A stretch of DNA of 64,000 nt from contig NZ_CP109435.1 of the NCBI RefSeq assembly GCF_036227125.1, positions 7,316,001 to 7,380,000 on the forward strand, given 5' to 3'. The DNA comes from Streptomyces sp. NBC_01485 (GTDB taxonomy: Bacteria; Actinomycetota; Actinomycetes; Streptomycetales; Streptomycetaceae). The stretch's first letter is position 1, and the number at the start of each line of letters is the position of its first letter. The translations under genes were made by a program, and so were the position numbers. The notes under the pieces were generated by a model that did no database searches, had not been told where the DNA came from, and saw nothing but the letters and a program-made list of their open reading frames with translations. Positions 17,003-60,400 of the stretch are shown piece after piece.

Positions 17003-17860
17003 TCCGCAGCTCACCTACCGGGGACCCGGCGTGCCCGCGCACCGCTCGACCCTGAAGGCCCCCGAAGCCCGCTGAGGCGGCCGTGAGGGGCGTGGCGGCC
17101 GTGACGGCCCGAGAGGTGGCCGGCGACAGCGACCTGGCCCCTGCGGTGTTCCTGCGGTGCGACCTGCTGCGAATGGTTCGACGCGTTCACCGTGCACTCC
17201 CGCGTACTCCGCCATGGAGTAACCGAATTACCCGCGCCACAAACCTCAAGATGTGACGGCCGTCTCACCGGACTTGGAAATGCATCGCAGCGGCTTTGCG
17301 GGATACCCCGAGTTCTTTCCGGATTGGCATTCCAACGCGTCGGACCGCCGGAAGACGTTCGCGTACACATAACGCACACATGTCGGCAGGGAAAGTGTAG
17401 AGGCGATGAATGACCGCCATGCCCACCTGGTGACGCCACGGCTCCCGCCACAACTGTCTTTGCTGTGGAGGGGCGTTCGCGCCATCCGTGGACAGCTTCG
17501 CACATTGATGGCACGCAGCCGTACACGGGTGCCTTGTGAGGGGGATATGAAACTTTCACATCCCACCAATTGATGGCAACCCGGACTCCTCGCTCCTGAA
17601 TCAGGGCCCGTCCACTACGCCTTTCGATATCCAATCCGGCTTCGAGATGGCCGGATGGTCAAGACTCCACAATGCTCCTTGTGCAGCGACCACGGCCGTC
17701 GTTAGCTTGATCGAGCCGGAGCCGGGTGAATTGACCAACTGTCCGCTCCTGCAGCTGTCGCGATAGCAATCAGCTGTCCGTTTGAGGTCCCGCACACCTT
17801 CACCGGTCCATCGACCGGTGTTCGGTGCACTCATTTCGCGGGGGAAGAGGTATCAGAGAA

Positions 17861-24010: not shown

Positions 24011-24066
24011 CCGCACGGCGTCGCCCGCGACCTGCTGTTAGGGGCCACGGACCACCCTTGGGGCAT

Positions 24067-24084
24067 GCGGGGCCCGCTAGGGGT
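24067..24084 (-). promoter_or_regulatory. Cluster operator motif, copy 2
   Basis: On the minus strand it reads ACCCCTAGCGGGCCCCGC, with an 11-bp period between cores. It lies about 160-175 bp upstream of the PKS1 start. Confidence 0.45.
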
Positions 24085-24243
24085 GTCGTCCCCCGATCGG
24101 CGGAACCTACGGTGGGCCGGGCCGAGAGGCCAACCACACCGGAACGGACGCCGGACCACGGCAGTGTGCGACGCGCGGTCGCCGGCGCAGCACGGCGGGC
24201 GCGCGGTCGGCGGACCGGCTGGGGACCGGGACCGGAAGGACAC

Positions 24244-34044
<9,801 letters not shown>

Positions 34045-34109
34045 ACTGCTCTGACCCCTCCAACTGCTTTGACTGCTTTCCGCGAGACGTGAAAGAGGAG
34101 CTGACTCCA

Positions 34110-44191: not shown

Positions 44192-44513
44192 CAATGACCT
44201 CCTGCAGCCGTTGGATCGTGGAGCGCGGGTCCCCTCCCGGATCCTTCCACCGGCCCGGCGCCGCGCCGGGGCCCGCCGGGCGGATGTGCGGACGGCACCG
44301 GCAGCAGCGGTGGGCCTAGGGGGCTGACTAGGGGTTCACCCGTCGCTCGGCGCGCGGTTAGGTTTCCCGGCGGGGACGACCGTCCTCCATCCGGTGCCGT
44401 GACGGCCCGTCCTCTCGGCGGCCTCCGGCCGGCCGAACGCGTAGGCACTTTCCGTGGCCTCCGACCAACCGTGAACCGCGCACCGGCGAATCCGCCTGGG
44501 CGAAGGAGACTTG
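44192..44513. promoter_or_regulatory. Divergent promoter region, ferredoxin and P450
   Basis: 322 bp without a gene. It contains one clear ACCCCTA-N5-CCCCC element at 44318-44335, roughly midway, and the two ribosome sites at the ends (AGGAGG for ferredoxin, GAAGGAG for P450). Confidence 0.55.
44318..44335 (-). promoter_or_regulatory. Cluster operator motif, copy 3
   Basis: On the minus strand it reads ACCCCTAGTCAGCCCCCT. Cores are 11 bp apart. It could control both the ferredoxin and the P450 gene. Confidence 0.5.
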
Positions 44514-45761
44514 ATGGCGATCTCGGCGGATCAGGAACAAGAGCAGGCGGAACTCGCCGTTTTCATCTGGCGGATGAGCATGCTCGGTGATCCCTACGCC
44601 CAAATACTGCTGCGCCAGGTCAACCCGTACCGCTTCTTCGAGAAGGCACGTGAACTGGGGCCGATCCACCGCAGCAAGGTCGGACCGTGGGTGACGCCCG
44701 ACTACCAGGTGGCGCGCGGCATTCTGCGCGACACCCGGTTCGGCACCCGTGACACACGGGGCGAGCGGACCATCGCGCAGTTCACCTCGGTGGACGACTC
44801 GTTCCTCAAGCTCGACCCGCCGGACCACACCCGGCTGCGCCGCCTGGTGACGCCGTACTTCGGCGCCCGGCGCTTCAACGCCGACCGGCCGAGGATCGCG
44901 CGGAAGTGCCACGACCTGCTGGACGCGGCCCTCGAACGGGCCGGTGAGACCGGCGAGTTCGATGTGGTGACGGACTACGCGCGGCCCCTGATGAGCGAGC
45001 TGGTCTGCGACGTGTTCGGCGTGCAGGGCGATTTCCGGGAGCGGTTCACCCTGTGCAGCGCGCGTACCGGCCGGGTCTTCGAGGGCTACTCCTCGCCGGA
45101 GCAGTACCAGGAGCTGGAGGAGGCCGTCGCCGACCTCCAGGCGCTGCTGTGGGAGCTGGTCGAGATCCGGGCGCGGCAACCGGGGCCCGACGTGGTCAGC
45201 GGGCTGCTGCGGGCGCAGCAGGACGACGGCCTCACGATGGAGGAGGTGGTCGGGGTGTGCGGGCTGCTGTCCATCGCGGGCACCGAGTCCACCTCCCACC
45301 TGATCGGCAACGCCGTGCTGGCGCTGCTGGAGAACCGCGAGCAGTGGGACCTGCTGCGCGCCGACCCGGAGCTGACGCCCCGGGCGGTGGAGGAGACACT
45401 GCGCTACGACCCGCCGAACCACCTCATCAGCCGGGTGGCACGCGAGGACGTCGTCCTGGCCGGACAGCGGATCGCGGCCGACGACACGGTCGTCATCATG
45501 ACCGGGGGCGCCAACCGCGACCCCCAGGTCTACCCGGAGCCCCAGCGCTTCGACATGCTGCGGGAGGACCCGGCCGAGCCGCTGACGTTCTCGGCAGGCG
45601 TCCACTTCTGCCTGGGCGCCGCCCTGGCCCGTACCGCCGCCGACACGGCTCTGCGAGTGCTGGCCGAGCGGCTGCCGGAGCTGCGCCAGGCGGGTCCGGT
45701 CAGCCGCCGCAGGTCGTCCTCGGTACGCGGCCTGGAACACCTGCCGGTCGCGGTCCGCTGA
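44514..45761 (+). CDS. Cytochrome P450
   Basis: 415 aa, ATG at 44514 after GAAGGAG. It has the I-helix oxygen motif AGTEST (255-260), the ExxR pair Glu294/Arg297 in EETLRY, and the heme loop FSAGVHFCLG with Cys366. The DPPDHTRLRRLV segment in helix C is typical of Streptomyces tailoring P450s. It is soluble and lies in a PKS cluster next to its ferredoxin, so it probably hydroxylates or epoxidises the polyketide. The substrate cannot be read from sequence. The next gene starts 44 bp downstream on the same strand and is probably cotranscribed. Confidence 0.95.
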   Translation: MAISADQEQEQAELAVFIWRMSMLGDPYAQILLRQVNPYRFFEKARELGPIHRSKVGPWVTPDYQVARGILRDTRFGTRDTRGERTIAQFTSVDDSFLKLDPPDHTRLRRLVTPYFGARRFNADRPRIARKCHDLLDAALERAGETGEFDVVTDYARPLMSELVCDVFGVQGDFRERFTLCSARTGRVFEGYSSPEQYQELEEAVADLQALLWELVEIRARQPGPDVVSGLLRAQQDDGLTMEEVVGVCGLLSIAGTESTSHLIGNAVLALLENREQWDLLRADPELTPRAVEETLRYDPPNHLISRVAREDVVLAGQRIAADDTVVIMTGGANRDPQVYPEPQRFDMLREDPAEPLTFSAGVHFCLGAALARTAADTALRVLAERLPELRQAGPVSRRRSSSVRGLEHLPVAVR

Positions 45762-46942: not shown

Positions 46943-47180
46943 TTGGCCTGCGACGCCACCCCGATCGCGAGCTCTTCGCGAATAGAGGCAGAGTGTGGTC
47001 GCACGACGGACGGACGCGATATATCGTGTCCCGGTGTCGACGCCCGACGGGCCCTTGCCGCCCCCGCTGTCCGACACCGGCCCACGCTGGTGCCCTCGCT
47101 CCGCCGTGCGCCACGTGCGCTGCCGCCCGCCCCTCCGACGGGCGGTGCCCCTCCCCCACGAGAAAGTCTGGAGACAACCC

Positions 47181-47999
47181 ATGCGACATGCCTCACCAGG
47201 GGTCCGGAACTCCTCCGACGACCAACCTGGCGCCATGGACGACGACCAGCCCGCGATGCAACTGACCGGTCTTTTCAAGCAGTTCGGTGATCATGTTGCG
47301 GTGGATCACATTGATCTGACGGTTCCGCGTGGTTCGTTCTTCGGTTTGGTGGGTCCGAACGGTGCGGGGAAGACGACGTCGTTGTCGATGGCTGTCGGGT
47401 TGTTGCGTCCTGATGGTGGGACGGTGCGGATTTTCGGTCACGATGTGTGGAGTGATCCGGTCGCGGCGAAGTCGTTGATCGGTGTGCTTCCTGACGGTAT
47501 GGCGTTGCCGGACCGGTTGACGGGGCGTGAGGTGCTGACGTATCTGGGGTTGTTGCGTGGTATGTCGCGTGAGACGGTCGCGGCGCGTGTCCAGGAGTTG
47601 CTGGAGGTGCTGGAGCTGGATTCGGCGGAGTCGACGATGGTGGTGGACTACTCGACGGGTATGCGGAAGAAGATCACTCTGGCCACGGCGTTGTTGCATG
47701 GTCCGCGGCTGTTGATTCTGGACGAGCCGTTCGAGGCGGTGGATCCGGTGTCGGCGGCGACGATCCGGACGATTCTGCAGCGGTTCGTGGCGGGTGGTGG
47801 TTCGGTGATCTTCTCGAGTCATGTGATGGCTGTGGTGGAGCGGTTGTGTGATCACGTCGCGGTGATCGCGAAGGGGAGGGTGGAGGCGGCTGGTTCGGTG
47901 GACGAGGTGCGGGGCGGGCGGTCTCTGGATGAGGCGTTCGTGCATATCGTCGGGGCTCACACCGGTGGTGGGGAGGGGCTGTCGTGGTTGGCGTCCTGA
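47181..47999 (+). CDS. ABC exporter ATPase, copy A
   Basis: 272 aa, ATG at 47181 after GGAG. It has Walker A GPNGAGKTT (58-66), the family signature YSTGMRKK (in place of LSGGQ, around 158-164), Walker B LLILDEP (177-183) and the switch His in FSSHVM. The first 25 residues differ from copy B, but the rest differs only at residue 165 (Ile here, Val in B). The gene overlaps the permease gene by 16 nt. The pair forms an ABC-2-like exporter, probably for product efflux or self-resistance. Confidence 0.92.
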   Translation: MRHASPGVRNSSDDQPGAMDDDQPAMQLTGLFKQFGDHVAVDHIDLTVPRGSFFGLVGPNGAGKTTSLSMAVGLLRPDGGTVRIFGHDVWSDPVAAKSLIGVLPDGMALPDRLTGREVLTYLGLLRGMSRETVAARVQELLEVLELDSAESTMVVDYSTGMRKKITLATALLHGPRLLILDEPFEAVDPVSAATIRTILQRFVAGGGSVIFSSHVMAVVERLCDHVAVIAKGRVEAAGSVDEVRGGRSLDEAFVHIVGAHTGGGEGLSWLAS

Positions 48000-49543
48000 T
48001 CGAGATGAAGCGGGCGATCGCCCGTTCGAAGGTTCGTGGCAGGTTGAAGTGGGGGATGCTGGGGCTGGCGGTGTTCGCGGCTGCTCTGGCGTTCAGCACG
48101 ATGGTGACGGGGTTCGTGCATTACGAGCATTCCGGCGCGGGGGCGGACGTGCTGGCCATTCTGAGTCTGGGCTGGTTGATCGGCTGGGTTTCGGGTCCGG
48201 TGCTGACGGGTGATGACAGCACGTTGCGGCTGGACTATTTCAAGCTTCTTCCGGTGCCGGTGGGCAAGCTCGCGTATGCGACGCTGGCTGCCGCGTTCGT
48301 CGACGGTTCGCTGTTGTTCAGTGCGATCGCTTTCGGCGGGCTGGTCGCCTATGGTGCGCAGTTCGGTGTGGCGGCGGCGCTGGTGGGTGTGGTCGCGGTG
48401 CTGCTGATGCTGGTGCTTGCGGTGGTCTCGTCGGTGGTCGCGGTGGGGATCTTCGGTCCGGTCATCTCTTCGCGGCGTGGTCGGGACTTCGGCTCGCTGC
48501 TGGCCGCGATGGTGATCACGTTGTTGTCGCTGGCGTCGTCGCTGGTGCCGGTGGTGGCGTCGAAGCTGACGAGCGGTGACGCACCGCTTCTGTCGGCGGT
48601 GGTGCGGATCCTGCCGTCGGGGTGGGGTGCGGTGGCCGTGGACTCGGCCCGTACTTCGCACTGGGGCATGGTCGCCCTGGCCTTGGGCGGACTCGCGGCG
48701 CTCAGCGCCGTCCAGGTGGCGGTCTGGCCGGCGTTGCTCCAGCGCCGGCTGACCATGCCCCCGGGCGGTCACAGCAAGGCCAAGGCGTCCAAGCGGGTGC
48801 ATGGTTCCCATGCGGGTGGGCGTGAGCCGGTTCTGCCGGGTACTCCGCTGGGCGGGGTGGTGGGCAAGGAGCTGCGGCTCTACTCGCGGGCGATGCTGCG
48901 TACTTTGTCGTTTCTGCTCGCGTTGGTGGTGGGGGTGCTGGCGTGTCTGATTCCGGCGTTCACGGGCAGCATGGTGATGCTGCCGTTCGCGGGTCTGCTG
49001 TTCACGGTGATCGCCGGTGCCACGTGCACCAACCTGTATGGGGATGAGGGTTCGGCGTTGTGGCTGGTCCTGGTGACGCCGGGGGTGGAGCGGGTGGATG
49101 TGCGGGGGCGGCAGTATGCGTGGCTGCTGATCGTGGCGCCGATCGGGCTTCTGCTCACGCTGGGGCTGACTGCTGTGAGCGGGCAGGCGTGGGCGTGGCC
49201 GTGGGTGCTGGGCGGTGAGCCGGCGATGATCGGTGGGGCGGCGGGGCTGGTGGTGTGGGCGTCGGTGATGACGATGTTCCCGCTCGACGCGAACGGCGGC
49301 CCGACTCCGGCACGGCAGTTGAAGATCAACCTGCTGGTGCTGGTCACGGCGCTGACGACCGCGCCGCCGCTGGCTTTGCTGATCGTCGGTGCCGTCACCG
49401 GCAGTGCCGCCCTGACCTGGGCGGCCGTCCCGGTCGGTGTGCTGAGCGGTGTCCTGCTGGCCTGGTCCCTGGGCCGTGCCTCCTACCGCAGGCTCCAGAA
49501 GCGTGGTCCCGAACTGTTCTCGAAGGTCGTCAAGCCCGCGTGA
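47984..49543 (+). CDS. ABC exporter permease, copy A
   Basis: 519 aa, GTG at 47984 inside the ATPase gene, preceded by GGGGAGGGG; an ATG at 48005 is an alternative. About twelve hydrophobic segments in two halves are joined by a basic cytoplasmic loop (SKAKASKRVHGSHAGG, near residue 265), so one chain could form the whole channel. The protein appears identical to copy B. Overlapping stop and start suggest translational coupling with the ATPase. G/T-ending codons are unusually frequent for this genome. Confidence 0.88.
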   Translation: MVGVLIEMKRAIARSKVRGRLKWGMLGLAVFAAALAFSTMVTGFVHYEHSGAGADVLAILSLGWLIGWVSGPVLTGDDSTLRLDYFKLLPVPVGKLAYATLAAAFVDGSLLFSAIAFGGLVAYGAQFGVAAALVGVVAVLLMLVLAVVSSVVAVGIFGPVISSRRGRDFGSLLAAMVITLLSLASSLVPVVASKLTSGDAPLLSAVVRILPSGWGAVAVDSARTSHWGMVALALGGLAALSAVQVAVWPALLQRRLTMPPGGHSKAKASKRVHGSHAGGREPVLPGTPLGGVVGKELRLYSRAMLRTLSFLLALVVGVLACLIPAFTGSMVMLPFAGLLFTVIAGATCTNLYGDEGSALWLVLVTPGVERVDVRGRQYAWLLIVAPIGLLLTLGLTAVSGQAWAWPWVLGGEPAMIGGAAGLVVWASVMTMFPLDANGGPTPARQLKINLLVLVTALTTAPPLALLIVGAVTGSAALTWAAVPVGVLSGVLLAWSLGRASYRRLQKRGPELFSKVVKPA

Positions 49544-49571
49544 GCGCGTGACCCATCGGCGATGACGGCAC

Positions 49572-49603
49572 GGAGGCGCCGCCCGATCACGGGCGGCGCC
49601 TCC
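49572..49603 (+). terminator. 14-bp hairpin after exporter copy A
   Basis: GGAGGCGCCGCCCG (49572-49585) and its complement (49590-49603) with an ATCA loop, 28 bp after the permease stop. The same hairpin follows copy B. Confidence 0.85.
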
Positions 49604-49636
49604 ACAACGTCGTATGCGACCCCGGGCCCTACGGAA

Positions 49637-49659
49637 TCAGACGTCGGCAGGCTCGATGG
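49637..49659 (-). pseudogene. 23-bp tail of the FAD-oxidase gene carried by the duplication
   Basis: TCAGACGTCGGCAGGCTCGA and the next 3 bases equal 55193-55215, the stop codon and last seven codons (IEPADV) of the FAD-oxidase gene. No oxidase sequence follows here, so this is a copied end. It fixes copy B as the donor locus. Confidence 0.85.
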
Positions 49660-49678
49660 TGTACGTACAGGAGCTCCA

Positions 49679-49732
49679 CGACGCGGCAGAGCCCGTCCGG
49701 TACGCACGTACCGGACGGGCTCTGCCGCGTCG
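49679..49732. terminator. 26-bp perfect hairpin between convergent genes
   Basis: The arms 49679-49704 and 49707-49732 are exact complements around a 2-nt centre (GCAGAGCCCGTCCGG in the left arm). It ends 5 bp before the methyltransferase stop and faces the exporter transcript, so it should work in both directions. Confidence 0.85.
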
Positions 49733-49737
49733 CGTGA

Positions 49738-51294
49738 CTACTCCCCGGAGTCCAGTTGGGCGATGAAAGCGTCCGGGAGTGACTCGGGCGGCATCGTGGC
49801 CGCGAGGTCCGAGCGGAGCGCGGTCACGAACGCGGTGGCGGCCACTGACCGGCTCGGGTCGTTGGCGTACCGCGACAGGTCGCCGGTCAGCGGCCCGGCG
49901 GGGCGGTAGGCGGCCACCGGACCCACCGGACCGTCAGGGCCGCCGGGCAGCAGCAGGACGTCGAGGAGGTCCGGGGCGCCGCTCGCCGCCCACGTCAGCA
50001 CCGCGATACGGCCCAGGCGGTCGGCCAGCGCGTGGAACTCCTCCGGATCGGGGGCCTCGGGATCAGGGGCGTCCAGCGCCGCCGGCTTCCGGGCCAGTTC
50101 GGCGGCGATCCGCTCCCGACCGGCCAGCGCCTCCAGCAGCCGGGCCGCCTCGGTCTCGTGCCTCAGCCGGACGTTCGGCACCCCGGTCACCCGGACCGGG
50201 CGGCCGGGCTCGGCGGCCAGCGCGGTCTCCAGCGCCGAGAGGTCCGCCACGTGATCGCCCCAGGCCAGCTCGACCGTGTCGGCGCCGACCGCCGGCTCAC
50301 CGGTGAGCGGCGCGCGGTGGAGCACCGCGTCGTAGCGGTGGCGGCTCAGTTCGTTGTGGTGGACGGCCCGCTTGATCCGGAGGTCGAGCGTGCCGCCGCC
50401 CGGGAAACTGTCCAGTACGGCCGCGAACAGGTCCGGATCGACGGCCAGTTCACGTTCGGTGTACGTGCTCAGCTCCACCGCGGCCCGCGCCTGCACCGGA
50501 TCGGCCGGCAGCTCGGGTGCCAGCACCGCGGTGCGGAACGCCGGCAGCGTACGCAGGTTGCGCACGTCCCCGATGAAGACGGCGCCGCCAGGGCGGGCCA
50601 TGCCGAGGGCGGCGGTCACCATGTCGGCGAGGTAGCCGGCGTTGGGGAAGTACTGCACGACCGAGTTGCAGACCACCACGTCGTAGTGGGACGTCGGCAG
50701 GCCGGACAGCTCGTCGGCCCGGCCCACCAGCAGTTCGACCCGGTCCCCCCACTCGACCTCGGCCAGTTTGTTCCTGAGTCTGTCGATCGCGGTGGGGGAG
50801 AAGTCGGTGGCCGTGTAACTCTCCACGTGCGGCGCGATGTTGGCCATCAGCAGTCCGGTGCCGACGCCGATCTCCAGGACCCGGCGCGGGCGCAGCGACA
50901 GGACGCGACGCACGGTCGCGTCCCGCCACTCACGCATCTGCTCCCGCTCGATCGGCTTGCCGTCGTAGCTGCTGTGCCAGCCGACGAAGTCGTCGCCCAG
51001 GCCGCCGGCCTCCGGCATCTCGCCGTACACCCACTCGTAGATCGCCTTCCAGTCGCGAACCCGCTTGACCTCGGCTTCCGGCGTGCGCCTGTCGGCCAGC
51101 GGACCGTCCGGGACGACGTGGGCGACCAGCCGGTCCGCCGCGCTGACCCCGGACGGGGAGCGGCGCACCTCCAGCCGTGCCGCGGCCACCTGCGGGTGGG
51201 CCTCGATGAGTCGCCGCGCCTCGTCGATCCGGACCGCGCGGCCCCGGATCTCGATCGCCGCCGACGGGTCGAGTTCCGAGAATGGTGTCGACAT
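49738..51294 (-). CDS. Stand-alone methyltransferase embedded in an NRPS adenylation C-lobe
   Basis: 518 aa, ATG at 51294 after AGGAG. Residues 12-65 look like the A8 region of an adenylation domain (AIEIRGRAVRIDEARRLIEA, then HPQVAAARLEV). Residues 80-330 are an NRPS-type SAM methyltransferase: GLGDDFVGWHSSYDG, motif I LEIGVGTGLLM (140-150), the Asp of TATDFSP and VVVCNSVVQYFP. The last 25 residues (ATMPPESLPDAFIAQLDSG) resemble the A9 region. So it matches the A8-MT-A9 part of an interrupted adenylation domain, without A1-A7, PCP or condensation domain. It probably methylates, in trans, the amine of the residue carried by the NRPS at 20738-23794. O- or C-methylation cannot be excluded. Confidence 0.82.
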   Translation of the reverse strand: MSTPFSELDPSAAIEIRGRAVRIDEARRLIEAHPQVAAARLEVRRSPSGVSAADRLVAHVVPDGPLADRRTPEAEVKRVRDWKAIYEWVYGEMPEAGGLGDDFVGWHSSYDGKPIEREQMREWRDATVRRVLSLRPRRVLEIGVGTGLLMANIAPHVESYTATDFSPTAIDRLRNKLAEVEWGDRVELLVGRADELSGLPTSHYDVVVCNSVVQYFPNAGYLADMVTAALGMARPGGAVFIGDVRNLRTLPAFRTAVLAPELPADPVQARAAVELSTYTERELAVDPDLFAAVLDSFPGGGTLDLRIKRAVHHNELSRHRYDAVLHRAPLTGEPAVGADTVELAWGDHVADLSALETALAAEPGRPVRVTGVPNVRLRHETEAARLLEALAGRERIAAELARKPAALDAPDPEAPDPEEFHALADRLGRIAVLTWAASGAPDLLDVLLLPGGPDGPVGPVAAYRPAGPLTGDLSRYANDPSRSVAATAFVTALRSDLAATMPPESLPDAFIAQLDSGE

Positions 51295-51346
51295 GAGCAC
51301 TCCTGGCCTACACGGATCGGTCGGAGACCGGTGTTGGTGAGTCGGT

Positions 51347-51389
51347 GAGGTGGTGAGGTGGGGAGGTGGGGAGGTGGGGAGGTGGGGAG
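51347..51389 (+). repeat. 8-bp tandem repeat between methyltransferase and hydrolase 2
   Basis: GAGGTGGG occurs four times without change (51355-51386), with an imperfect copy before it. It lies in the 107-bp gap between two minus-strand genes that are probably cotranscribed. Confidence 0.85.
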
Positions 51390-51401
51390 CCGACTGGCGG
51401 G

Positions 51402-52199
51402 TCAGCGGAGAAGGTCCGCGACCGCCTTGGCGACGTCGGGGTGGCCGAGGAGTTCGGCGTGGTCGACCTCGAAGCGCAGCTCGCGGTCGGGGCGGACGTC
51501 CAGGTTGCCGGGCAGGTCGCAGGAGCGGACCACGCTCACGTCGGGCAGGCCCGTGGTGACCGGCATCCGGCCCGCCGCCACGACGTAGTGCAGGTAGCTG
51601 CGGAACCAGCCGACCAACTCCTCCACCCGGTCGGCCTTCAGGCCCAGCCGTTCGAAGGCGGCGGCGCCGAACCGCCGGTAGATGCGTATGAACTCCTCGG
51701 TGAGGGCGGCCAGTTCGGATTCGGCCGCCACCGCCTGCTCGCCCTCCCGGTACGCGTCGGCCACGCCGTCGGCGCCCAGCACCCCGGAGAGCGCGTCGAT
51801 CACCGGCCGGAACCCGTAGCGCAGCACCGTCTCGCCGTTGATGGCCGTCGGGTCGAACAGCACGACGGACGGCGTACGTTGCCAGCCGCCGACCCGCTCG
51901 GCCAGCGCCAGGGCGAAGACCGACGACGCGCAGTAGCCGAAGACGTGCGAGACGGAGACGTCCTGGGCGCGCAACTCGCCGGTCCAGCGCAGAAGATAGT
52001 CCTCGGCCGACATCCCGGACTCCTCGCCCGGTGGCGGGGCCAGGCTCTCCCAGACGGCGTGTCCGGTCCCCAGGCCACGGGCCAGTGCGGCGAACGCCGC
52101 CTCCGGGCGGCCGGTGGCGGTGAAGTCCACCGCGAGGACGACCGGCCGGCCGGCGCGCCGATCGTCTTCCGTCACCCGCCAGGATCCGAGTTCGGACAT
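51402..52199 (-). CDS. Alpha/beta-hydrolase (thioesterase-like) with Cys at the nucleophile elbow, copy 2
   Basis: 265 aa, ATG at 52199 after GGGAG; the longer frame upstream is not coding. It is a paralogue of the protein at 45805-46617: both begin with VLAVD followed by a variable loop, keep the AVWESLAPPPGEE-like stretch, and end with VDHAELL and AVADLL. The elbow reads GYCASS (Cys90), the acid is Asp116 in FDPTA and the His is 247. The gene is divergent from exporter copy B and upstream of the methyltransferase gene. It may be a release or editing enzyme; the two copies could serve successive steps. Similarity to known thioesterases is by fold-level motifs only. Confidence 0.7.
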   Translation of the reverse strand: MSELGSWRVTEDDRRAGRPVVLAVDFTATGRPEAAFAALARGLGTGHAVWESLAPPPGEESGMSAEDYLLRWTGELRAQDVSVSHVFGYCASSVFALALAERVGGWQRTPSVVLFDPTAINGETVLRYGFRPVIDALSGVLGADGVADAYREGEQAVAAESELAALTEEFIRIYRRFGAAAFERLGLKADRVEELVGWFRSYLHYVVAAGRMPVTTGLPDVSVVRSCDLPGNLDVRPDRELRFEVDHAELLGHPDVAKAVADLLR

Positions 52200-52289
52200 C
52201 GTCTGTGCTCCCTGGTCGGACGTGGACGGCCCGGGATGCCACAGCGCCCGAGCCCGCCAACACGCTAGGCACGCCGACGACGCCGGCAC

Positions 52290-52308
52290 ACCCTTATCCA
52301 CCCCCCTA
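52290..52308 (+). promoter_or_regulatory. Cluster operator motif, copy 5 (one mismatch)
   Basis: ACCCTTATCCACCCCCCTA, about 90 bp upstream of hydrolase 2. It resembles the copy at 56884 (ACCCCTATCCGACCCCCTG). Confidence 0.4.
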
Positions 52309-52381
52309 CCGCCCGTCCCTCGACCGCTTCTTCCCGCCGCCGAACCCGATTTCACCCCTGCGCGTCCCGATCTCGCGCCCA

Positions 52382-52399
52382 ACCCCTACCGGACCCCAG
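52382..52399 (+). promoter_or_regulatory. Cluster operator motif, copy 6
   Basis: ACCCCTACCGGACCCCAG, an exact ACCCC direct repeat with an 11-bp period. Sequence after it (CCGGCCCGCACGGCGACC) resembles that after the copy at 23994. Confidence 0.5.
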
Positions 52400-52414
52400 C
52401 CGGCCCGCACGGCG

Positions 52415-52430
52415 ACCCCTTTCAGGGGGT
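52415..52430. promoter_or_regulatory. Inverted repeat ACCCCT-N3-AGGGGGT
   Basis: ACCCCTTTCAGGGGGT is the same core arranged as a palindrome, 15 bp after operator copy 6. It may be a second binding geometry of the same regulator. Confidence 0.4.
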
Positions 52431-52736
52431 CCGGGACGGTCGTCTGCCAGGGGCAGGCAATGGATTCGTGCGCACTCGGCAAGGATGCCCGGGCGCGGCT
52501 TCCGCCAGTGCGGACGGCGGTGGTACGAGTGGGAGCGATGACGCTCCGATGGTCGCTCGTCCTCACCCGTGAGGTGATCGCGATATCCCGTGTTCAGGTG
52601 TCGATGTCCGGCGGCAAGCACTCGCGCCAGCCGCCCGGCACTCGTCCACGCCGTCGACCACGCCGCGTCGCAGTCCGCTGCCCCCACTGCGGCGGCCCGC
52701 GAATCCCCCCACGACATCGTCTGGAGAAACAGATAC

Positions 52737-53555
52737 ATGCCGCAAGCTTCCCGAGAAGGCCGCGACTCCTCCAGCCTCGCCACGGCCGCCGTGGTCGACA
52801 CCCAGTCCGCGATGCAACTGACCGGTCTTTTCAAGCAGTTCGGTGATCATGTTGCGGTGGATCACATTGATCTGACGGTTCCGCGTGGTTCGTTCTTCGG
52901 TTTGGTGGGTCCGAACGGTGCGGGGAAGACGACGTCGTTGTCGATGGCTGTCGGGTTGTTGCGTCCTGATGGTGGGACGGTGCGGATTTTCGGTCACGAT
53001 GTGTGGAGTGATCCGGTCGCGGCGAAGTCGTTGATCGGTGTGCTTCCTGACGGTATGGCGTTGCCGGACCGGTTGACGGGGCGTGAGGTGCTGACGTATC
53101 TGGGGTTGTTGCGTGGTATGTCGCGTGAGACGGTCGCGGCGCGTGTCCAGGAGTTGCTGGAGGTGCTGGAGCTGGATTCGGCGGAGTCGACGATGGTGGT
53201 GGACTACTCGACGGGTATGCGGAAGAAGGTCACTCTGGCCACGGCGTTGTTGCATGGTCCTCGGCTGTTGATTCTGGACGAGCCGTTCGAGGCGGTGGAT
53301 CCGGTGTCGGCGGCGACGATCCGTACGATTCTGCAGCGGTTCGTGGCGGGTGGTGGTTCGGTGATCTTCTCGAGTCATGTGATGGCTGTGGTGGAGCGGT
53401 TGTGTGATCACGTCGCGGTGATCGCGAAGGGGAGGGTGGAGGCGGCTGGTTCGGTGGACGAGGTGCGGGGCGGGCGGTCTCTGGATGAGGCGTTCGTGCA
53501 TATCGTCGGGGCTCACACCGGTGGTGGGGAGGGGCTGTCGTGGTTGGCGTCCTGA
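52737..53555 (+). CDS. ABC exporter ATPase, copy B
   Basis: 272 aa, ATG at 52737 after GGAG. Same motifs as copy A (Walker A GPNGAGKTT, signature YSTGMRKK, Walker B LLILDEP, FSSHVM). The N-terminal 25 residues (MPQASREGRDSSSL onward) are as long as those of copy A but mostly different, sharing a pattern of AS, R, SS, D and QxAMQL. That pattern suggests an old duplication whose body was later made identical. Operon with the permease gene, 16-nt overlap. Confidence 0.92.
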   Translation: MPQASREGRDSSSLATAAVVDTQSAMQLTGLFKQFGDHVAVDHIDLTVPRGSFFGLVGPNGAGKTTSLSMAVGLLRPDGGTVRIFGHDVWSDPVAAKSLIGVLPDGMALPDRLTGREVLTYLGLLRGMSRETVAARVQELLEVLELDSAESTMVVDYSTGMRKKVTLATALLHGPRLLILDEPFEAVDPVSAATIRTILQRFVAGGGSVIFSSHVMAVVERLCDHVAVIAKGRVEAAGSVDEVRGGRSLDEAFVHIVGAHTGGGEGLSWLAS

Positions 53556-55099
53556 TCGAGATGAAGCGGGCGATCGCCCGTTCGAAGGTTCGTGGCAGGT
53601 TGAAGTGGGGGATGCTGGGGCTGGCGGTGTTCGCGGCTGCTCTGGCGTTCAGCACGATGGTGACGGGGTTCGTGCATTACGAGCATTCCGGCGCGGGGGC
53701 GGACGTGCTGGCCATTCTGAGTCTGGGCTGGTTGATCGGCTGGGTTTCGGGTCCGGTGCTGACGGGTGATGACAGCACGTTGCGGCTGGACTATTTCAAG
53801 CTTCTTCCGGTGCCGGTGGGCAAGCTCGCGTATGCGACGCTGGCTGCCGCGTTCGTCGACGGTTCGCTGTTGTTCAGTGCGATCGCTTTCGGCGGGCTGG
53901 TCGCCTATGGTGCGCAGTTCGGTGTGGCGGCGGCGCTGGTGGGTGTGGTCGCGGTGCTGCTGATGCTGGTGCTTGCGGTGGTCTCGTCGGTGGTCGCGGT
54001 GGGGATCTTCGGTCCGGTCATCTCTTCGCGGCGTGGTCGGGACTTCGGTTCGCTGCTGGCCGCGATGGTGATCACGTTGTTGTCGCTGGCGTCGTCGCTG
54101 GTGCCGGTGGTGGCGTCGAAGCTGACGAGCGGTGATGCGCCGCTTCTGTCGGCGGTGGTGCGGATCCTGCCGTCGGGGTGGGGTGCGGTGGCTGTGGACT
54201 CGGCCCGTACTTCGCACTGGGGCATGGTCGCCCTGGCCTTGGGCGGACTCGCGGCGCTCAGCGCCGTCCAGGTGGCCGTGTGGCCGGCGTTGCTTCAGCG
54301 CCGGCTGACCATGCCGCCGGGCGGTCACAGCAAGGCGAAGGCGTCCAAGCGGGTGCATGGTTCCCATGCGGGTGGGCGTGAGCCGGTTCTGCCGGGTACT
54401 CCGCTGGGCGGGGTGGTGGGCAAGGAGCTGCGGCTCTACTCGCGGGCGATGCTGCGTACTTTGTCGTTTCTGCTCGCGTTGGTGGTGGGGGTGCTGGCGT
54501 GTCTGATTCCGGCGTTCACGGGCAGCATGGTGATGCTGCCGTTCGCGGGTCTGCTGTTCACGGTGATCGCCGGTGCCACGTGCACCAACCTGTATGGGGA
54601 TGAGGGTTCGGCGTTGTGGCTGGTCCTGGTGACGCCGGGGGTGGAGCGGGTGGATGTGCGGGGGCGGCAGTATGCGTGGCTGCTGATCGTGGCGCCGATC
54701 GGGCTTCTGCTCACGCTGGGGCTGACTGCTGTGAGCGGGCAGGCGTGGGCGTGGCCGTGGGTGCTGGGCGGTGAGCCGGCGATGATCGGTGGGGCGGCGG
54801 GGCTGGTGGTGTGGGCGTCGGTGATGACGATGTTCCCGCTCGACGCGAACGGCGGCCCGACTCCGGCACGGCAGTTGAAGATCAACCTGCTGGTGCTGGT
54901 CACGGCGCTGACGACCGCGCCGCCGCTGGCTTTGCTGATCGTCGGTGCCGTCACCGGCAGTGCCGCCCTGACCTGGGCGGCCGTCCCGGTCGGTGTGCTG
55001 AGCGGTGTCCTGCTGGCCTGGTCCCTGGGCCGTGCCTCCTACCGCAGGCTCCAGAAGCGTGGTCCCGAACTGTTCTCGAAGGTCGTCAAGCCCGCGTGA
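53540..55099 (+). CDS. ABC exporter permease, copy B
   Basis: 519 aa, GTG at 53540. I find no amino acid difference from copy A; the DNA differs at about ten silent sites around 54049-54341. It has about twelve hydrophobic segments and a basic middle loop. With its ATPase it forms a second complete exporter. A reason to keep two may be dosage, since both lie downstream of operator-like motifs. Confidence 0.88.
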   Translation: MVGVLIEMKRAIARSKVRGRLKWGMLGLAVFAAALAFSTMVTGFVHYEHSGAGADVLAILSLGWLIGWVSGPVLTGDDSTLRLDYFKLLPVPVGKLAYATLAAAFVDGSLLFSAIAFGGLVAYGAQFGVAAALVGVVAVLLMLVLAVVSSVVAVGIFGPVISSRRGRDFGSLLAAMVITLLSLASSLVPVVASKLTSGDAPLLSAVVRILPSGWGAVAVDSARTSHWGMVALALGGLAALSAVQVAVWPALLQRRLTMPPGGHSKAKASKRVHGSHAGGREPVLPGTPLGGVVGKELRLYSRAMLRTLSFLLALVVGVLACLIPAFTGSMVMLPFAGLLFTVIAGATCTNLYGDEGSALWLVLVTPGVERVDVRGRQYAWLLIVAPIGLLLTLGLTAVSGQAWAWPWVLGGEPAMIGGAAGLVVWASVMTMFPLDANGGPTPARQLKINLLVLVTALTTAPPLALLIVGAVTGSAALTWAAVPVGVLSGVLLAWSLGRASYRRLQKRGPELFSKVVKPA

Positions 55100-55127
55100 G
55101 CGCGTGACCCATCGGCGATGACGGCAC

Positions 55128-55159
55128 GGAGGCGCCGCCCGATCACGGGCGGCGCCTCC
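55128..55159. terminator. 14-bp hairpin between exporter copy B and the FAD oxidase
   Basis: Same GGAGGCGCCGCCCG stem and ATCA loop as at 49572. Here the flanking genes converge, so it probably stops both transcripts. Confidence 0.85.
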
Positions 55160-55192
55160 ACAACGTCGTATGCGACCCCGGGCCCTACGGAA

Positions 55193-56728
55193 TCAGACGT
55201 CGGCAGGCTCGATGGACAGGGCGTGGGTGAACACGCCGCGCGGATCCCACCGGGCCTTGATCCGGCGCAGGCGCGGGTAGTTGTCCTTGTAGTAGAACGT
55301 GTGCCACGGCACGCCGGAGGAGTTCCAACGGGGATCCAGCAGATCGGTGTCCGGGTTGTTGATGTACGTACCGTCCATGACGTCGTCCGGGACCGGCACC
55401 CCGCCGGTCGCCTTGTGCACCTCGCCGTACCACGCGCGGATCCAGGCCAGGTGCTTGTCGTCGTCGGCGGGGTTCGTCCAGCTCGTGGAGTACACCAGCT
55501 TCAGGATCGAGGACCGCTGGGGGATCGCCGTCGCGTCCGGCGGCACCGTGTTGGCCTTGCCGCCGCAGCCGACGAGCATCAGTGAGCCGCTGGGATTGTC
55601 GTAGTCGTCGCTGGTCAGCCAGCGGTAGCAGGTGGACAGTTGCTCGTCCGAGTAGCAGGTCCGCATGTCGGCCGCCTTGATCTTCGAACGCTGCGTCTCC
55701 AGACCGGCGCTGGTGTACAGCACGCTCCACAGCGACGCCCGGAACCAGGGCATGGCGTGGTGCTCCTGGAGCATCACCTGCGGCGTCTCCATGCCCTCGG
55801 CCAGCGCTTCCAGGTACTCCGCGAGCACCTGCTCGGCACCGGGCTCGGTGGCGTCCATCTGGATGTTCACCACCACACCGCCCGCCGACTTGTGCGTCAG
55901 CAGCATGCCGCTGTACAGGGCCAGGCCCGGTGAGCCGGGGCCGCTGTTGCGCTCGTACCAGCCGACGTGGTTCTTGATCAGCCGGACGAAGTCCGCCTCG
56001 CTCAGGGTCGCCCACGGCCATGCCACGTACCGCAGGTGCACCGAGTGCGGCGGGCGGGGGAGCAGTTCGCGCGGGTCGTCACCGAGGGCGTCGGGGGAGC
56101 GCAGCCAGTAGCGGGTCACCACGCCGAAGTTGCCGCCGCCACCACCGGTGTGCGCCCACCACAGATCGCGGTTCGGGTCATCCGGCGCGTTGCTGGCGAC
56201 CACCGCGCGGGCGGTGCCGTCGGCGTCGACCACCACCACCTCCACCGCGCACAAGTAGTCGACCACATAGCCCAGCCGACGCGACAGCGGCCCGTACGCG
56301 CCGCCCACCACATGCCCGCCGACGCCCACCGACGGACAGGAGCCGCCCGGTACGGTCACCCCCCACCGCTTGAACAGCGTCCGGTACAACTCGCCCAACT
56401 GCACGCCGGGTTCGACCATGAACGCCCGGCGCTCGGCGTCGAACCCGATCCCCCGCATCGCCGACATGTCGATCAGCGCCCCGACCTCGGGGCTGTCCAC
56501 CAACTGCTCCTGGCAGTGCCCGCCGCTGCGCACCGCGATCCGCGCGCCCGCGTCCACGCCCGCCTGAACGGCGCTCACGGTTTCCTCGGTGCAGTTGACC
56601 ATGTATACGTAATCGGGCCGGCCGATGAAACGCTGATTACAGCCCCGGGTGAGATCCGTGTAACGGAAGTCGTCCTTTCCGACCCGGATCCGTTCGGTCA
56701 CCGTTCCTGATTGTGCGGTCGATTCCAT
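55193..56728 (-). CDS. BBE-like FAD-linked oxidase, probably bicovalent flavin
   Basis: 511 aa, ATG at 56728 after GAGAGG. The FAD domain (about 30-210) has His71 in RSGGHCQEQ and Cys131 in VPGGSCPSVGVGGH, the two residues that hold FAD in bicovalent members of the berberine-bridge family. The C-terminus ends with the usual NYPRLRRIKARWDPRGVFTH-like flavin-contact loop. No signal peptide is seen, so it should be intracellular. Such enzymes oxidise secondary or allylic alcohols to ketones or make C-C or C-O bonds. The His/Cys context resembles the flavoproteins TrdL/TamL of tirandamycin, which work with a P450 on the same molecule; a P450 is also present here. The substrate is inferred to be the cluster's polyketide. 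Confidence 0.9.
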   Translation of the reverse strand: MESTAQSGTVTERIRVGKDDFRYTDLTRGCNQRFIGRPDYVYMVNCTEETVSAVQAGVDAGARIAVRSGGHCQEQLVDSPEVGALIDMSAMRGIGFDAERRAFMVEPGVQLGELYRTLFKRWGVTVPGGSCPSVGVGGHVVGGAYGPLSRRLGYVVDYLCAVEVVVVDADGTARAVVASNAPDDPNRDLWWAHTGGGGGNFGVVTRYWLRSPDALGDDPRELLPRPPHSVHLRYVAWPWATLSEADFVRLIKNHVGWYERNSGPGSPGLALYSGMLLTHKSAGGVVVNIQMDATEPGAEQVLAEYLEALAEGMETPQVMLQEHHAMPWFRASLWSVLYTSAGLETQRSKIKAADMRTCYSDEQLSTCYRWLTSDDYDNPSGSLMLVGCGGKANTVPPDATAIPQRSSILKLVYSTSWTNPADDDKHLAWIRAWYGEVHKATGGVPVPDDVMDGTYINNPDTDLLDPRWNSSGVPWHTFYYKDNYPRLRRIKARWDPRGVFTHALSIEPADV

Positions 56729-57089: not shown

Positions 57090-57300
57090 CGGCCGGACCG
57101 GCCGGACCGTTGGCCTGCTCAGGAAAGCAAGTCCGCCGCCGGATATCACTCGCGCCCGCGCGATATTCCGCGCGGTAAAACAAGAATTCCACTGCTTTCC
57201 ATATGCCCCGGCCGCCGTCGGTGCCGTGGCGGCGGAGCGCCGCTCCGGCGTGCGCTCCGCGTGCCGGGCCCGTTCGACACCATCGCCGCCCTGCCGTCCC

Positions 57301-57403: not shown

Positions 57404-60400
57404 ATGACCACGTCAACCGAGCAGATCCTCGAAGCGCTGCGGGCCTCCCTGAAGGAGACCGAGCGCCTGCGCCGCAGCAACCGGGCGCTGACCGAGGCGG
57501 CGCACGAGCCGATCGCCATCGTCGGGATGGCCTGCCGGCTGCCCGGCGGGGTGCGCAGCCCGGAGGACCTGTGGCGGCTGGTCGACGACGGCGCCGACGC
57601 GGTCGGCGGGCTGCCCACCGACCGTGGCTGGGACATCGAGGCGCTGTACGACCCGGACCCCGACAAGCCGGGGACCTTCTACGTGGACCAGGGCGGCTTC
57701 ATCGACGACGTCGCAGACTTCGACGCGCCGTTCTTCGGGATCTCGCCGCGTGAGGCGCTGGCGATGGATCCCCAGCAGCGGCTGCTGCTTGAGACCTCGT
57801 GGGAGGCGTTCGAACGGGCCGGGATCGACCCGCACTCGCTGAGCGGCAGCAAGTCCGGCGTGTTCATCGGCGCCGCCTTCCAGGGGTACGGCGGCGGCGG
57901 GCACCAGCCGCTGCCGGAGGGCGTCGAGGGCTACCTGCTCACCGGCAACATCACCAGCGTCGCCTCCGGCCGCATCGCGTACACGCTGGGCCTTCAGGGA
58001 CCGGCGATCACGGTGGAGACCGCCTGCTCCTCCTCCTCCGTCGCGCTGCACATCGCGTGCCAGAGCCTGCGGCAGGGCGAGTGCACCCTCGCGGTGGCGG
58101 GCGGCGCATCGGTGCTGACCACCCCTTGGTCGTTCGTGGAGTTCAGCCGCCAGGGCGGTCTGGCGGTGGACGGCCGGTGCAAGGCGTTCTCCAGCGACGC
58201 CGACGGCATCGGCTGGGCGGACGGCGTCGGCGTGCTGCTCCTGGAACGGCTGTCGGACGCCCAACGGCTCGGCCACCGCGTGCTGGCCGTCATCCGGGGC
58301 ACCGCCATCAACCAGGACGGCGCCAGCAACGGCCTGGCCGCCCCCAGCGGTCCCGCCCAGCAGCGCGTCATCCGCGAGGCCCTGGCCGACGCCGGGCTGA
58401 CCGCCGCCGACGTCGACGCCGTCGAGGCGCACGGTACGGGCACCACACTCGGCGACCCCATCGAGGCGCAGGCCCTGCTGGCCACCTACGGTCAACAGCG
58501 CGCCGCCGAGGAGCCGTTGTGGCTCGGCTCGCTCAAGTCCAACATCGGCCACTGCCAGACCGCGTCCGGCGTGGCCGGTGTGATCAAGTCCGTCATGGCC
58601 CTGGAACACGGTGTGCTGCCCAGGACGCTGCATGTGGCGGAGCCCTCGCCGCACGTCGACTGGTCGGACGGCGCCGTACGGCTGCTGACCGAGGCCCGGG
58701 CATGGCCGAGCACCGGCCGGGCGCGCCGCATCGGGGTGTCCTCCTTCGGCGTCAGCGGCACGAACGTCCACCTGATCCTGGAACAGGCCCCCGACCTGCC
58801 CGCTTCCGACCCGGAACCGACCCCGGAGCCCGGACCGGGCACCGCCGCCGTCCGGCCGCGGCCGTTCGGCGCGGCCGAAGCGGCGCCATGGGTGCTCTCG
58901 GGCCGCGGGGCCGCCGCGCTGGCCGGCCAGGCGGCGCAACTGGCGGAGTTCGTCGAACCCGCAGTACATGGAGTGCAGGGAGTACAGGGAGAAGCCGCAG
59001 AACCCTCAGAAGCCCCAGAACCCTCAGAAGCCGCAGAACCCGCAGTCCACGGCACCGTCGCGATCGGGCGGGCGCTGGCCGGCCGGTCGGCATTCGCGGA
59101 CCGCGCGGTGATCTTCGGCGAGAGCCTGGCCGAACGGGTCGCAACGCTGCGGGAGATCGAGTCCGGCACGGCCGACTCGCCACGGGTGGTGACCGGCAGC
59201 GCGGGCGCCGATGCCGGTGTGGTGTTCGTGTTCCCGGGGCAGGGGGCGCAGTGGGTGGGGATGGGCCGTGAACTGCTGGCCGTGTCACCGGTGTTCGCGG
59301 CGTCGATCGCGGAGTGCGAGGCGGCGCTGTCGCCGTGGGTCGACTGGTCGCTGACCGGTGTGCTCGCCGGTGACGGAGCTGAGTTGGCGCGGGTTGATGT
59401 GGTGCAGCCGGTGTTGTGGGCTGTGATGGTGTCGTTGGCTGCGGTGTGGCGGTCGGTGGGTGTGGTGCCGGTTGCGGTGGTGGGTCATTCGCAGGGTGAG
59501 ATCGCGGCGGCGTGTGTGGCGGGTGCGTTGTCGTTGGAGGACGCCGCCCGGGTTGTCGTGTTGCGGTCGCGCGCGATCACGCGGCTTGCGGGCACTGGCG
59601 GGATGGTGTCCGTCTTCGCCTCTGCCGAGGAGGTGGAGCCGCTGCTGCCGGACGGTGTCGGGATCGCGGCGGTCAATGGGCCGGGGTCCGTCGTGGTGTC
59701 GGGGCCCGTGGACGAGCTGGACGCGTTCGTGGAGCGGTGCGCGGCGGAGGGGGTTCAGGCGAAGCGGGTCGCGGTGGACTACGCCTCGCACTCGGTGATG
59801 GTCGAGGCGCTGGAAGCGGAGATCACCGAGTCGTTGAAGGGCGTCACGTCGCAGGCGCCTGCCGTGCCGATGCTGTCGACGTACACGGGCGAGTGGGTCA
59901 AGTCCGGTGAGCTGGACGGCGGTTACTGGTACGGGAACCTGCGACACCGCGTGCGCCTGGCCGACGCGGTGGGCGAGTTGGCCGCCGCCGGGCACCGGCT
60001 GTTCGTGGAGGTCAGCCCGCACCCCGTGCTGACGACAGCCGTCCAGGACACGCTGGACCAGAAGTCGAGCGGGGACGGTGTCGCGCTGGGCACCCTGCGT
60101 CGCGACCAGGGCGGAGCCGAGCGGTTTCTGCGCTCGGTCGCCGAGGCGTTCACCCAGGGAGCCCAGGTCGACTGGGCGGCGCTGTACGGCGGCATCGAGG
60201 TGCCGCGCGTGGAGTTGCCGACGTACGCCTTCCAGCGGCAGCGCTACTGGCTGGAGAACCCGGACACCGGGTTCGCCGATGCCGCGGGGCTGGGCCTGAC
60301 GACGGTCGAACACCCGCTGCTGGCCGCCGCGGTGAGCCTGGCCGACGATGACGGACTGGTACTCACCGGCCGCCTGTCGACCCGCGCCCATCCGTGGCTG

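Follow-up and report, generated by a model that had tools for sequence, protein, structure and literature searches.

Genes and features of the exporter region

The window analysed is a 64,000-nucleotide stretch of the Streptomyces sp. NBC_01485 genome (contig NZ_CP109435.1, positions 7,316,001 to 7,380,000), and all coordinates refer to it. It contains what appear to be two ABC-exporter operons, each with an ATPase and a permease gene, which lie on either side of a methyltransferase gene within a large modular polyketide cluster. The window copies are designated winA and winB. Both sites are likewise occupied in Streptomyces sp. yr375 (yrA and yrB), and SID13726 has a single copy, at site B. 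The features of the region are as follows.

44511–45761, + strand: cytochrome P450 gene; unskewed control gene
47015–47028, + strand: possible operator, perfect CGCGATATATCGTG, upstream of copy A; also in yrA, and almost unchanged in SID13726
47181–47999, + strand: ATPase A (nucleotide-binding subunit), 272 aa; PF00005, 1.2e-24; N-terminal ~25 aa A-type, remainder as in copy B
47251–49659, + strand: copy A block, putative recipient of a gene-conversion tract; leader A-type, body B-type
47984–49543, + strand: permease A, 519 aa; protein identical to permease B
48493–48781, + strand: difference patch (289 bp) holding 9 of the 12 A/B differences, each of them synonymous; clustering P about 4e-5
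49572–49603, + strand: hairpin with a 14-bp stem, 3′ of permease A and inside the tract; same at 55128–55159; −46.7 kcal/mol, z −4.4
49637–49659, − strand: oxidase 3′ remnant at locus A (stop plus 20 bp), at the right edge of the tract
49680–49731, no strand assigned: palindrome with 25-bp arms, 20 bp past the tract edge; −61.6 kcal/mol, z −7.9
49738–52272, − strand: single-copy methyltransferase-domain protein, 844 aa, between the exporter copies; unskewed control gene
52579–52592, + strand: degenerate counterpart CGCGATATCCCGTG of the possible operator, 2 mismatches, upstream of copy B
52737–53555, + strand: ATPase B, 272 aa; PF00005, 6e-25
52807–55215, + strand: copy B block, putative donor
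53540–55099, + strand: permease B, 519 aa, the pair of permease A
55193–56728, − strand: FAD-binding/berberine-bridge-type (BBE) oxidase, 511 aa, adjoining copy B

The ATPase carries the ABC ATPase domain of an ABC exporter (PF00005). Its best NCBIfam match, drrA (TIGR01188), scores 208.8 bits, below the curated cut-off of 312.45 bits, and DrrA membership was rejected on this score. The Pfam search gave no match for the permease; judging from its context, the 519-aa gene overlapping the ATPase gene probably encodes an ABC-2 type membrane subunit. Minus-strand ORFs in the exporter region were assigned to no families, and the exporter genes lie on the plus strand. The hairpin at 49572–49603 is likely a terminator. 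Sites matching CGCGATATATCGTG with at most three mismatches number 6 in the window against 2.6 expected, an excess that is weak alone. Two matches to the E. coli Chi sequence GCTGGTGG lie in the tract and none in SID13726, numbers too small to use.

Two near-identical blocks and their edges

The ungapped match of the two blocks proposed in an earlier note was borne out by base-by-base alignment: copy A (47251–49659) and copy B (52807–55215), at an offset of 5556, are identical at 2397 of 2409 positions (99.5%), with 12 mismatches. These differences are nearly all towards G/T in copy B, which has G or T at eight of the nine in the difference patch. A whole-genome search of the 9,142,758-bp contig found exactly two full-length copies, with differing flanks. 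On the right side, identity stops exactly at 49659/55215, and the A-side DNA past the tract (49660–49737) matches itself alone in the genome. The palindrome located there occurs once in the genome and is absent from the yrA flank; it is a candidate bidirectional terminator and/or break site. The left edge is less sharp, with 37 of the 60 bp preceding the block alike, and this likeness appears to be older, diverged homology.

Near-identical repeats can be misassembled, but a single exporter placed twice is scarcely credible in a two-contig assembly with unique flanks and 12 clustered differences, the more so as the independent yr375 assembly has both loci, with diverged permeases.

Oxidase tail and direction of copying

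As the earlier note had read it, the final 23 bp of copy A are the 3′ end of the oxidase gene: positions 49637–49659 equal 55193–55215 and comprise the stop and the last seven codons (SIEPADV*). The C-termini of 15 oxidase homologues (e.g. HALSVRLPG, HAQSIRPA and HALAIEPP) have a conserved end that SIEPADV fits; it is thus the oxidase's own end and not exporter DNA, and the right breakpoint lies, as had been suggested, inside the oxidase gene. The tail is absent at locus A of yr375. A close copy of the oxidase was not found in yr375 or SID13726; a contig ends within copy B of yr375, so that the oxidase locus there lies beyond it.

Sequence moved from B to A, the direction deduced in that note: SIEPADV is native to the oxidase, yrA lacks the tail, and the permease bodies of both window copies are B-type. 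The common 23 bp, being symmetric when taken alone, would equally suit copying from A to B, with an oxidase inserted at B whose terminal codons happened to come from exporter-side DNA. The three observations just listed all speak against that course, which is highly improbable.

Relatives and age of the duplication

About 1,180 genome searches (overlapping draws) and a genome-contig scan found close exporter homologues only in yr375 and SID13726, and six cross-genus homologues at 55–64%. The yrB copy is cut by a contig end, and its right half was searched for and is absent from the yr375 assembly; comparison with yr375 at site B therefore covers the 5′ half. The tree of the upstream region and leader separates winA and yrA from winB, yrB and SID13726 (bootstrap 100), and the A upstream region and leader are 88–96% identical to locus A of yr375. 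The permease-body tree groups winA and winB with yrB (bootstrap 100, likewise with six outgroups added). At permease sites where yrA and yrB differ, the window copies equal yrB at 89–90 and yrA at 29–30 (p 1.9e-8 to 6e-8); for unrecoded (A/C) states only, the counts are 31 and 4. The winA permease protein is 92% identical to that of yrB and 81% to that of yrA.

Since winA goes with yrA in the upstream region and leader, and both winA and winB go with yrB in the permease body, the exporter duplication appears to predate the split from yr375. It may have come before or after the split from SID13726 (support 43–74). The 2.4-kb block would then be a later B-to-A gene-conversion tract, in which an A-type permease (~19% different in protein in its yr375 version) was replaced.

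The event had at first been taken for the duplication itself, with the exporter duplicated in 2.4-kb blocks. Both copies were apparently already present in the ancestor common to yr375, which makes the event a conversion between long-standing duplicates. What was duplicated is larger and older, taking in promoter region, ATPase, permease and terminator; 2.4 kb is its homogenised part. Comparison with related clusters, two copies in yr375 and one in SID13726, was decisive here, upholding the B-to-A direction but not a fresh duplication. A recent segmental duplication, with a 2.4-kb piece of B inserted at an A site that had no prior exporter, would account for the 99.5% identity, the sharp right edge and the oxidase tail. 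It is nevertheless very unlikely: diverged homology does not stop at the block edges but runs upstream, yr375 has a full exporter at locus A that closely resembles A in its upstream region and leader, and winA and yrA group there with maximal bootstrap.

One-way recoding of the homogenised DNA

Of the 226 third positions with C in the relatives, 107 are changed in the tract, 64 to G, 43 to T and 0 to A; at third-position G sites, the changes amount to 6 of 206. The 65 permease changes of the window lineage include 29 C>G and 27 C>T, as compared with 53 of 146 in neighbouring genes (Fisher 6e-12). Nothing comparable to the exporter recoding was seen in neighbouring cluster genes, and the skew is absent from SID13726 and 16 homologues from other genomes. 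The earlier note did not remark on this skew. The base chosen follows the preceding base: GGC becomes GGT, but GCC becomes GCG and CCC becomes CCG.

Recoding is nearly restricted to homogenised tracts. The two yr375 copies are identical over 851 bp of the ATPase, where roughly 30–50% of the SID13726-C sites are recoded; past the tract edge, the proportion drops to 3–39%, mostly below 25%. Most of the recoding in yr375 thus falls within these 851 bp, the strain's own homogenised ATPase tract. Identity and skew coincide imperfectly, as the window tract is identical but hardly GC-skewed over its final ~400 bp (49250–49659). The GC/TA skew is +0.25/+0.39 for both genes, borderline against a threshold of 25%, and +0.21/+0.41 for the permease alone, and it is strong over the first ~1 kb. 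Part of the permease's TA skew is intrinsic, unskewed homologues having +0.2 to +0.37, so the argument rests on the GC skew.

The changes are mostly synonymous and depend on the preceding base, as they might if codons or mRNA-level properties were under ordinary selection in an exporter duplicated by coincidence. This is unlikely: in yr375, the skew weakens within the same gene pair at the end of the homogenised tract; it is missing in SID13726, the 16 homologues elsewhere and the cluster-mates; and repeats within the synthase genes carry a skew of the same kind. Somewhat better placed, but still improbable, is an imported allele, a foreign G/T-rich homologue that replaced B (then A) by homologous recombination with no recoding in situ. 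The tract-like skew and the mosaic-looking 289-bp patch would suit such an origin. Once differences from C in yrB to G/T in the window are removed, however, the permease differs from yrB by 4.2%, against 5–9% in flanking genes; this residual difference is no more than that of the flanks and so is as expected for recoding in place. Furthermore, no G/T-coded homologue beyond those described was met with in the ~1,180 overlapping genome searches or the contig scan.

GRINS in the synthase genes and a GRINS-like exporter pair

GRINS have been suggested to accelerate evolution in antibiotic assembly lines; to our knowledge, their origin is unexplained. The synthase genes of this cluster contain many GRINS, including:

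27811–30120, + strand: GRINS in the polyketide synthase gene 24058–34044
35761–36900, + strand: GRINS in the acyltransferase region of a polyketide synthase gene; about 95% identical to 40622–41663 and 92–95% to two sites beyond the window
39541–41730, + strand: GRINS in the same polyketide synthase gene as 35761–36900

The original GRINS paper dates from 2021 (PNAS). No GRINS in transporters were found in the literature searched. GRINS are delimited as stretches of 500 bp or more with a >80% identical counterpart elsewhere in the same cluster, scored in 150-nt windows (PMC9899208), and by GC and TA skew above 25% (PMC10394414). The exporter regions 47161–49710 and 52741–55290 have the required identity (99.5% in the blocks), and the pair falls within the numerical limits of PMC9899208, with values of 0.24/0.37 and 0.25/0.38. 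It is also associated with gene conversion, as GRINS are. Its location differs, in ABC ATPase and permease genes and not inside assembly-line polyketide synthase coding DNA. The exporter blocks form a GRINS-like pair, of which the relatives show different stages.

Proposed history and significance

We consider it highly probable that an old duplication of the ABC exporter was followed by B-to-A conversion over 47251–49659, with one-way recoding of the homogenised parts. The duplication, with promoter region and terminator included, would have preceded the split from yr375, and copy B would since have overwritten copy A by gene conversion, 47251–49659 being the latest tract. This tract would have exchanged a divergent A-type permease for the B-type and taken along 23 bp of the oxidase gene. 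At the right end, copying probably ran past the homology into the oxidase gene; a speculative next step is end joining, for which the palindrome 49680–49731 may have supplied the break. Within the homogenised parts, coding-strand third positions would have changed from C to G or T with the protein largely kept. As has been suggested for GRINS, recoding may be coupled to conversion; it would arise in B and be handed on to A. A more specific model is offered only tentatively: conversion, or a DNA intermediate of it, may be mutagenic one way (coding-strand C to G/T), and G/T-rich DNA may recombine more, so that the tract grows. The exporter pair would then be a record of the process, with the ATPase first (largely common to both species), then the permease in the window lineage, continuing in donor B with the 12 fresh differences.

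The exporter may carry the cluster polyketide. Both copies would export this product from differently regulated promoters, and conversion would leave two promoters with one exporter. It erased a diverged transporter type and left its promoter, and a duplication date taken from a simple exporter tree would be wrong.

Among the many similar modules of the synthase genes, the history is hard to trace; the exporter case has only two copies. These, together with unskewed outgroups and with recoding that covers about one third of the operon in one relative and most of it in another, make the sequence of events legible: the recoding runs one way and hardly leaves the homogenised DNA, with the donor copy apparently ahead. 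The pair catches a poorly understood gene-rewriting process midway, and it allows a coupling of conversion and recoding to be tested in ordinary laboratory Streptomyces.

Comparison with known systems

As in DrrAB-type self-resistance/export ABC transporters, an ATPase and a separate membrane protein are encoded in a biosynthetic cluster; unlike in that type, there are two exporter operons, the ATPase lies under the drrA cut-off and the permease has no Pfam match. Concerted evolution of bacterial duplicates through gene conversion (Santoyo & Romero 2005, as cited in PMC9205934) is a closer parallel: the duplication is apparently older than the species split, the exporter paralogues are more alike than the orthologues, and the flanks keep their locus identity. 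The exporter tract departs from it in the one-way C to G/T recoding and in a right end that extends beyond homology into a neighbouring gene. With GRINS, it shares kilobase repeats of very high identity in one biosynthetic cluster, positive coding-strand GC and TA skew and evidence of conversion. Unlike GRINS, it lies outside polyketide synthase genes, in a pair of ABC-exporter operons, and spans nearly two whole genes; it homogenises two transporters, whereas GRINS diversify acyltransferase domains; and its relatives show different stages.

Gene layout of the exporter locus

The two exporter blocks, the methyltransferase-domain gene between them and an oxidase gene all lie inside a large type I modular polyketide cluster of a 9.17-Mb genome (two contigs). 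The blocks match without gaps, as the earlier note had it; 2397 of 2409 positions are identical. Each carries one ABC-exporter operon; polyketide export is the probable role of both.

24058–34044, 33930–43865 and 57404 onwards, synthase genes
44511–45761, P450 gene
47015–47028, perfect CGCGATATATCGTG-like palindrome upstream of exporter A
47251–49659, + strand, copy A, and 52807–55215, + strand, copy B: in each, an ATPase gene (272 aa, PF00005 match) overlapping the downstream gene of a 519-aa membrane protein (putative permease; no family match in a Pfam search), with a terminator-like hairpin 3′ of the latter
49680–49731, palindrome with 25-bp arms (−61.6 kcal/mol) between exporter A and the methyltransferase gene
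49738–52272, − strand, methyltransferase-domain gene between the exporter copies
52579–52592, degenerate CGCGATATATCGTG-like palindrome upstream of exporter B
55193–56728, − strand, FAD/BBE oxidase gene adjoining copy B
57159–57172, CGCGATATATCGTG-like palindrome, CGCGATATTCCGCG, upstream of the next synthase gene

Of the CGCGATATATCGTG elements in the promoter regions, the one at A is thus complete and the one at B degenerate; the three sites are a possible shared operator. The 844-aa product of 49738–52272 has a mid-protein methyltransferase domain as its sole recognised part, leaving some 440 residues on its N-terminal side and some 270 on its C-terminal side unassigned, and is conserved in all three clusters compared here. 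A large LuxR-family regulator gene (17825–20647; AAA_16 and GerE) likely encodes a pathway activator.

Age of the duplication

Two close relatives were found in the collections searched. An 18,310-bp contig of Streptomyces sp. yr375, of the same genus (G062 contig C109; a contig of equal length is listed as NZ_FOFF01000079.1), has the order PKS–P450–exporter A–methyltransferase–exporter B, that of the window, up to the contig end, which falls inside its copy B (yrB). Streptomyces sp. SID13726 has a single exporter, at the B position, and lacks the oxidase there; its cluster (L037/G296:C333, 65–228 kb) is a related giant modular polyketide cluster with dozens of ketosynthase matches across about 160 kb. 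Comparison with related clusters, which the earlier note had proposed, yielded one with a single exporter and one with both.

In a five-way alignment, window copy A matches copy A of yr375 (yrA) at 88–96% over the upstream region and leader, and window copy B groups with yrB and SID13726. The tree of upstream region plus leader separates window A and yrA from the rest (bootstrap 100); the permease tree places both window copies with yrB (bootstrap 100, and again 100 with six cross-genus outgroups). Since the trees depend on the region and yr375 has copies at both sites, exporters occupied both loci already in the common ancestor of the two species, and the identical 2.4 kb are a gene-conversion tract. 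The match had been taken for the duplication event itself; the presence of both copies in yr375 and the regional conflict of the trees contradict this. Tree support for the order of duplication and the SID13726 split is 43–74. The left ‘breakpoint’ is the end of conversion within homologous DNA; upstream of it the older homology continues through the promoter region.

Direction of conversion

Three lines of evidence agree in pointing to conversion from B to A, the direction originally suggested. The last 23 bp of copy A are identical to the stop and final seven codons of the oxidase gene, as had been noticed; yrA has no such tail. The ending SIEPADV belongs to the oxidase, because 15 homologues have much the same C-terminus (HALSVRLPG, HAQSIRPA, HALAIEPP). 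At permease sites where yrA differs from yrB, window A equals yrB at 90 and yrA at 29 (p = 1.9e-8); where the window base is A or C (unrecoded), the matches are 31 and 4. In protein sequence the permease of window A shares 92% identity with that of yrB and 81% with that of yrA: locus A has lost its A-type protein to replacement. Copies A and B still differ in their regulatory regions and, in the ATPase, at some 25 N-terminal residues and one Ile/Val position. The oxidase, found neither at the SID13726 B locus nor in the yr375 assembly, was probably gained next to the exporter in this lineage alone, before the last conversion.

One-way recoding

At third codon positions the exporter genes are rich in G and T and poor in C (G3 0.60, C3 0.15–0.26, T3 0.14–0.24; in SID13726, G3 0.32–0.37 and C3 0.57–0.60). 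Of 226 third positions at which the relatives share C, the window differs at 107, with G at 64, T at 43 and A at none; of 206 G sites it differs at 6. C to A is equally silent at fourfold sites yet never seen, so relaxation by itself does not account for this recoding. Which base replaces C varies with the preceding base: mostly T after G, mostly G after C or T. Among window-lineage changes, C to G/T makes up 56/65 in the permease against 53/146 in neighbouring single-copy genes of the same three strains (Fisher 6e-12), which have no such bias. Strain yr375 serves as an internal control: yrA and yrB are identical over 851 bp, from the leader end to the early permease, this stretch is recoded, and past its edge identity and recoding both drop. 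As an exception, GC skew is weak over the final ~400 bp of the tract in the window, although the copies agree fully there. GC skew is absent in SID13726 and 16 homologues from other genomes (−0.19 to +0.04); their TA skew is +0.19 to +0.37, so that of the membrane protein is partly intrinsic. An imported G/T-rich allele is argued against: apart from yrB-C to window-G/T differences, the window permease is 4.2% from yrB, no more than the neighbours, which favours recoding in place.

A stretch of 289 bp, where the permease has little skew, holds nine of the twelve A/B differences, all nine of them synonymous (P about 4e-5). Copy B has G or T at 11 of the twelve, nine of these replacing A or C of copy A; at seven sites window B alone deviates, window A agreeing with both yr375 copies. 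This small sample of 12 sites suggests that B was recoded further after its last copying into A.

Possible mechanism

We regard as established the old duplication, the B-to-A conversion, the tract edges and the one-way recoding, nearly restricted to homogenised tracts. The right end would have formed when the copied strand ran on beyond the homology of the exporters, into the oxidase gene, and was then joined to unrelated DNA. The palindrome at 49680–49731, occurring once in the genome, starts 20 bp past the tract edge at A; the yrA flank lacks it and carries (TCTACA)n, a hexamer repeat, in its place. Breakage at the palindrome, with B as the repair template and end joining as the last step, would account for both A as recipient and the unusual right end; the palindrome may equally be a bidirectional terminator only. 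The C to G/T changes might stem from a recombination machinery that favours G/T-rich DNA, or from error-prone repair after exposed cytosines of the coding strand are deaminated, a route that does not easily explain the preceding-base dependence.

Comparison with GRINS

GRINS are skewed, near-identical repeats known from polyketide synthase genes, described as ~1-kb regions with identity often above 90% and skews above 25% (PMC10394414), or called at >80% identity over at least 500 bp with mean absolute GC and TA skews >0.15 (PMC9899208). When the latter definition is used on 164 kb of the cluster, the two copies of the exporter fall within it (skews 0.24/0.37 and 0.25/0.38), as do many synthase-gene stretches. 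The synthase genes are rich in GRINS, among them 27811–30120, 34831–36900, 39541–41730, 59161–60210 and some 20 others as far as +100 kb; 35825–36881 has 92–95% copies at 40622 in the window and at 114331 and 119746 (numbered as in the window) outside it. The original GRINS paper reportedly mentions other gene families too in its abstract. Five repeat pairs in the cluster have at least 92% identity over at least 250 bp, and all are positively skewed; on these grounds the exporter pair behaves like GRINS. However, the published descriptions cited here include location in synthase genes, and because the exporter pair departs from them in this, we class it as a GRINS variant lying outside synthase genes.
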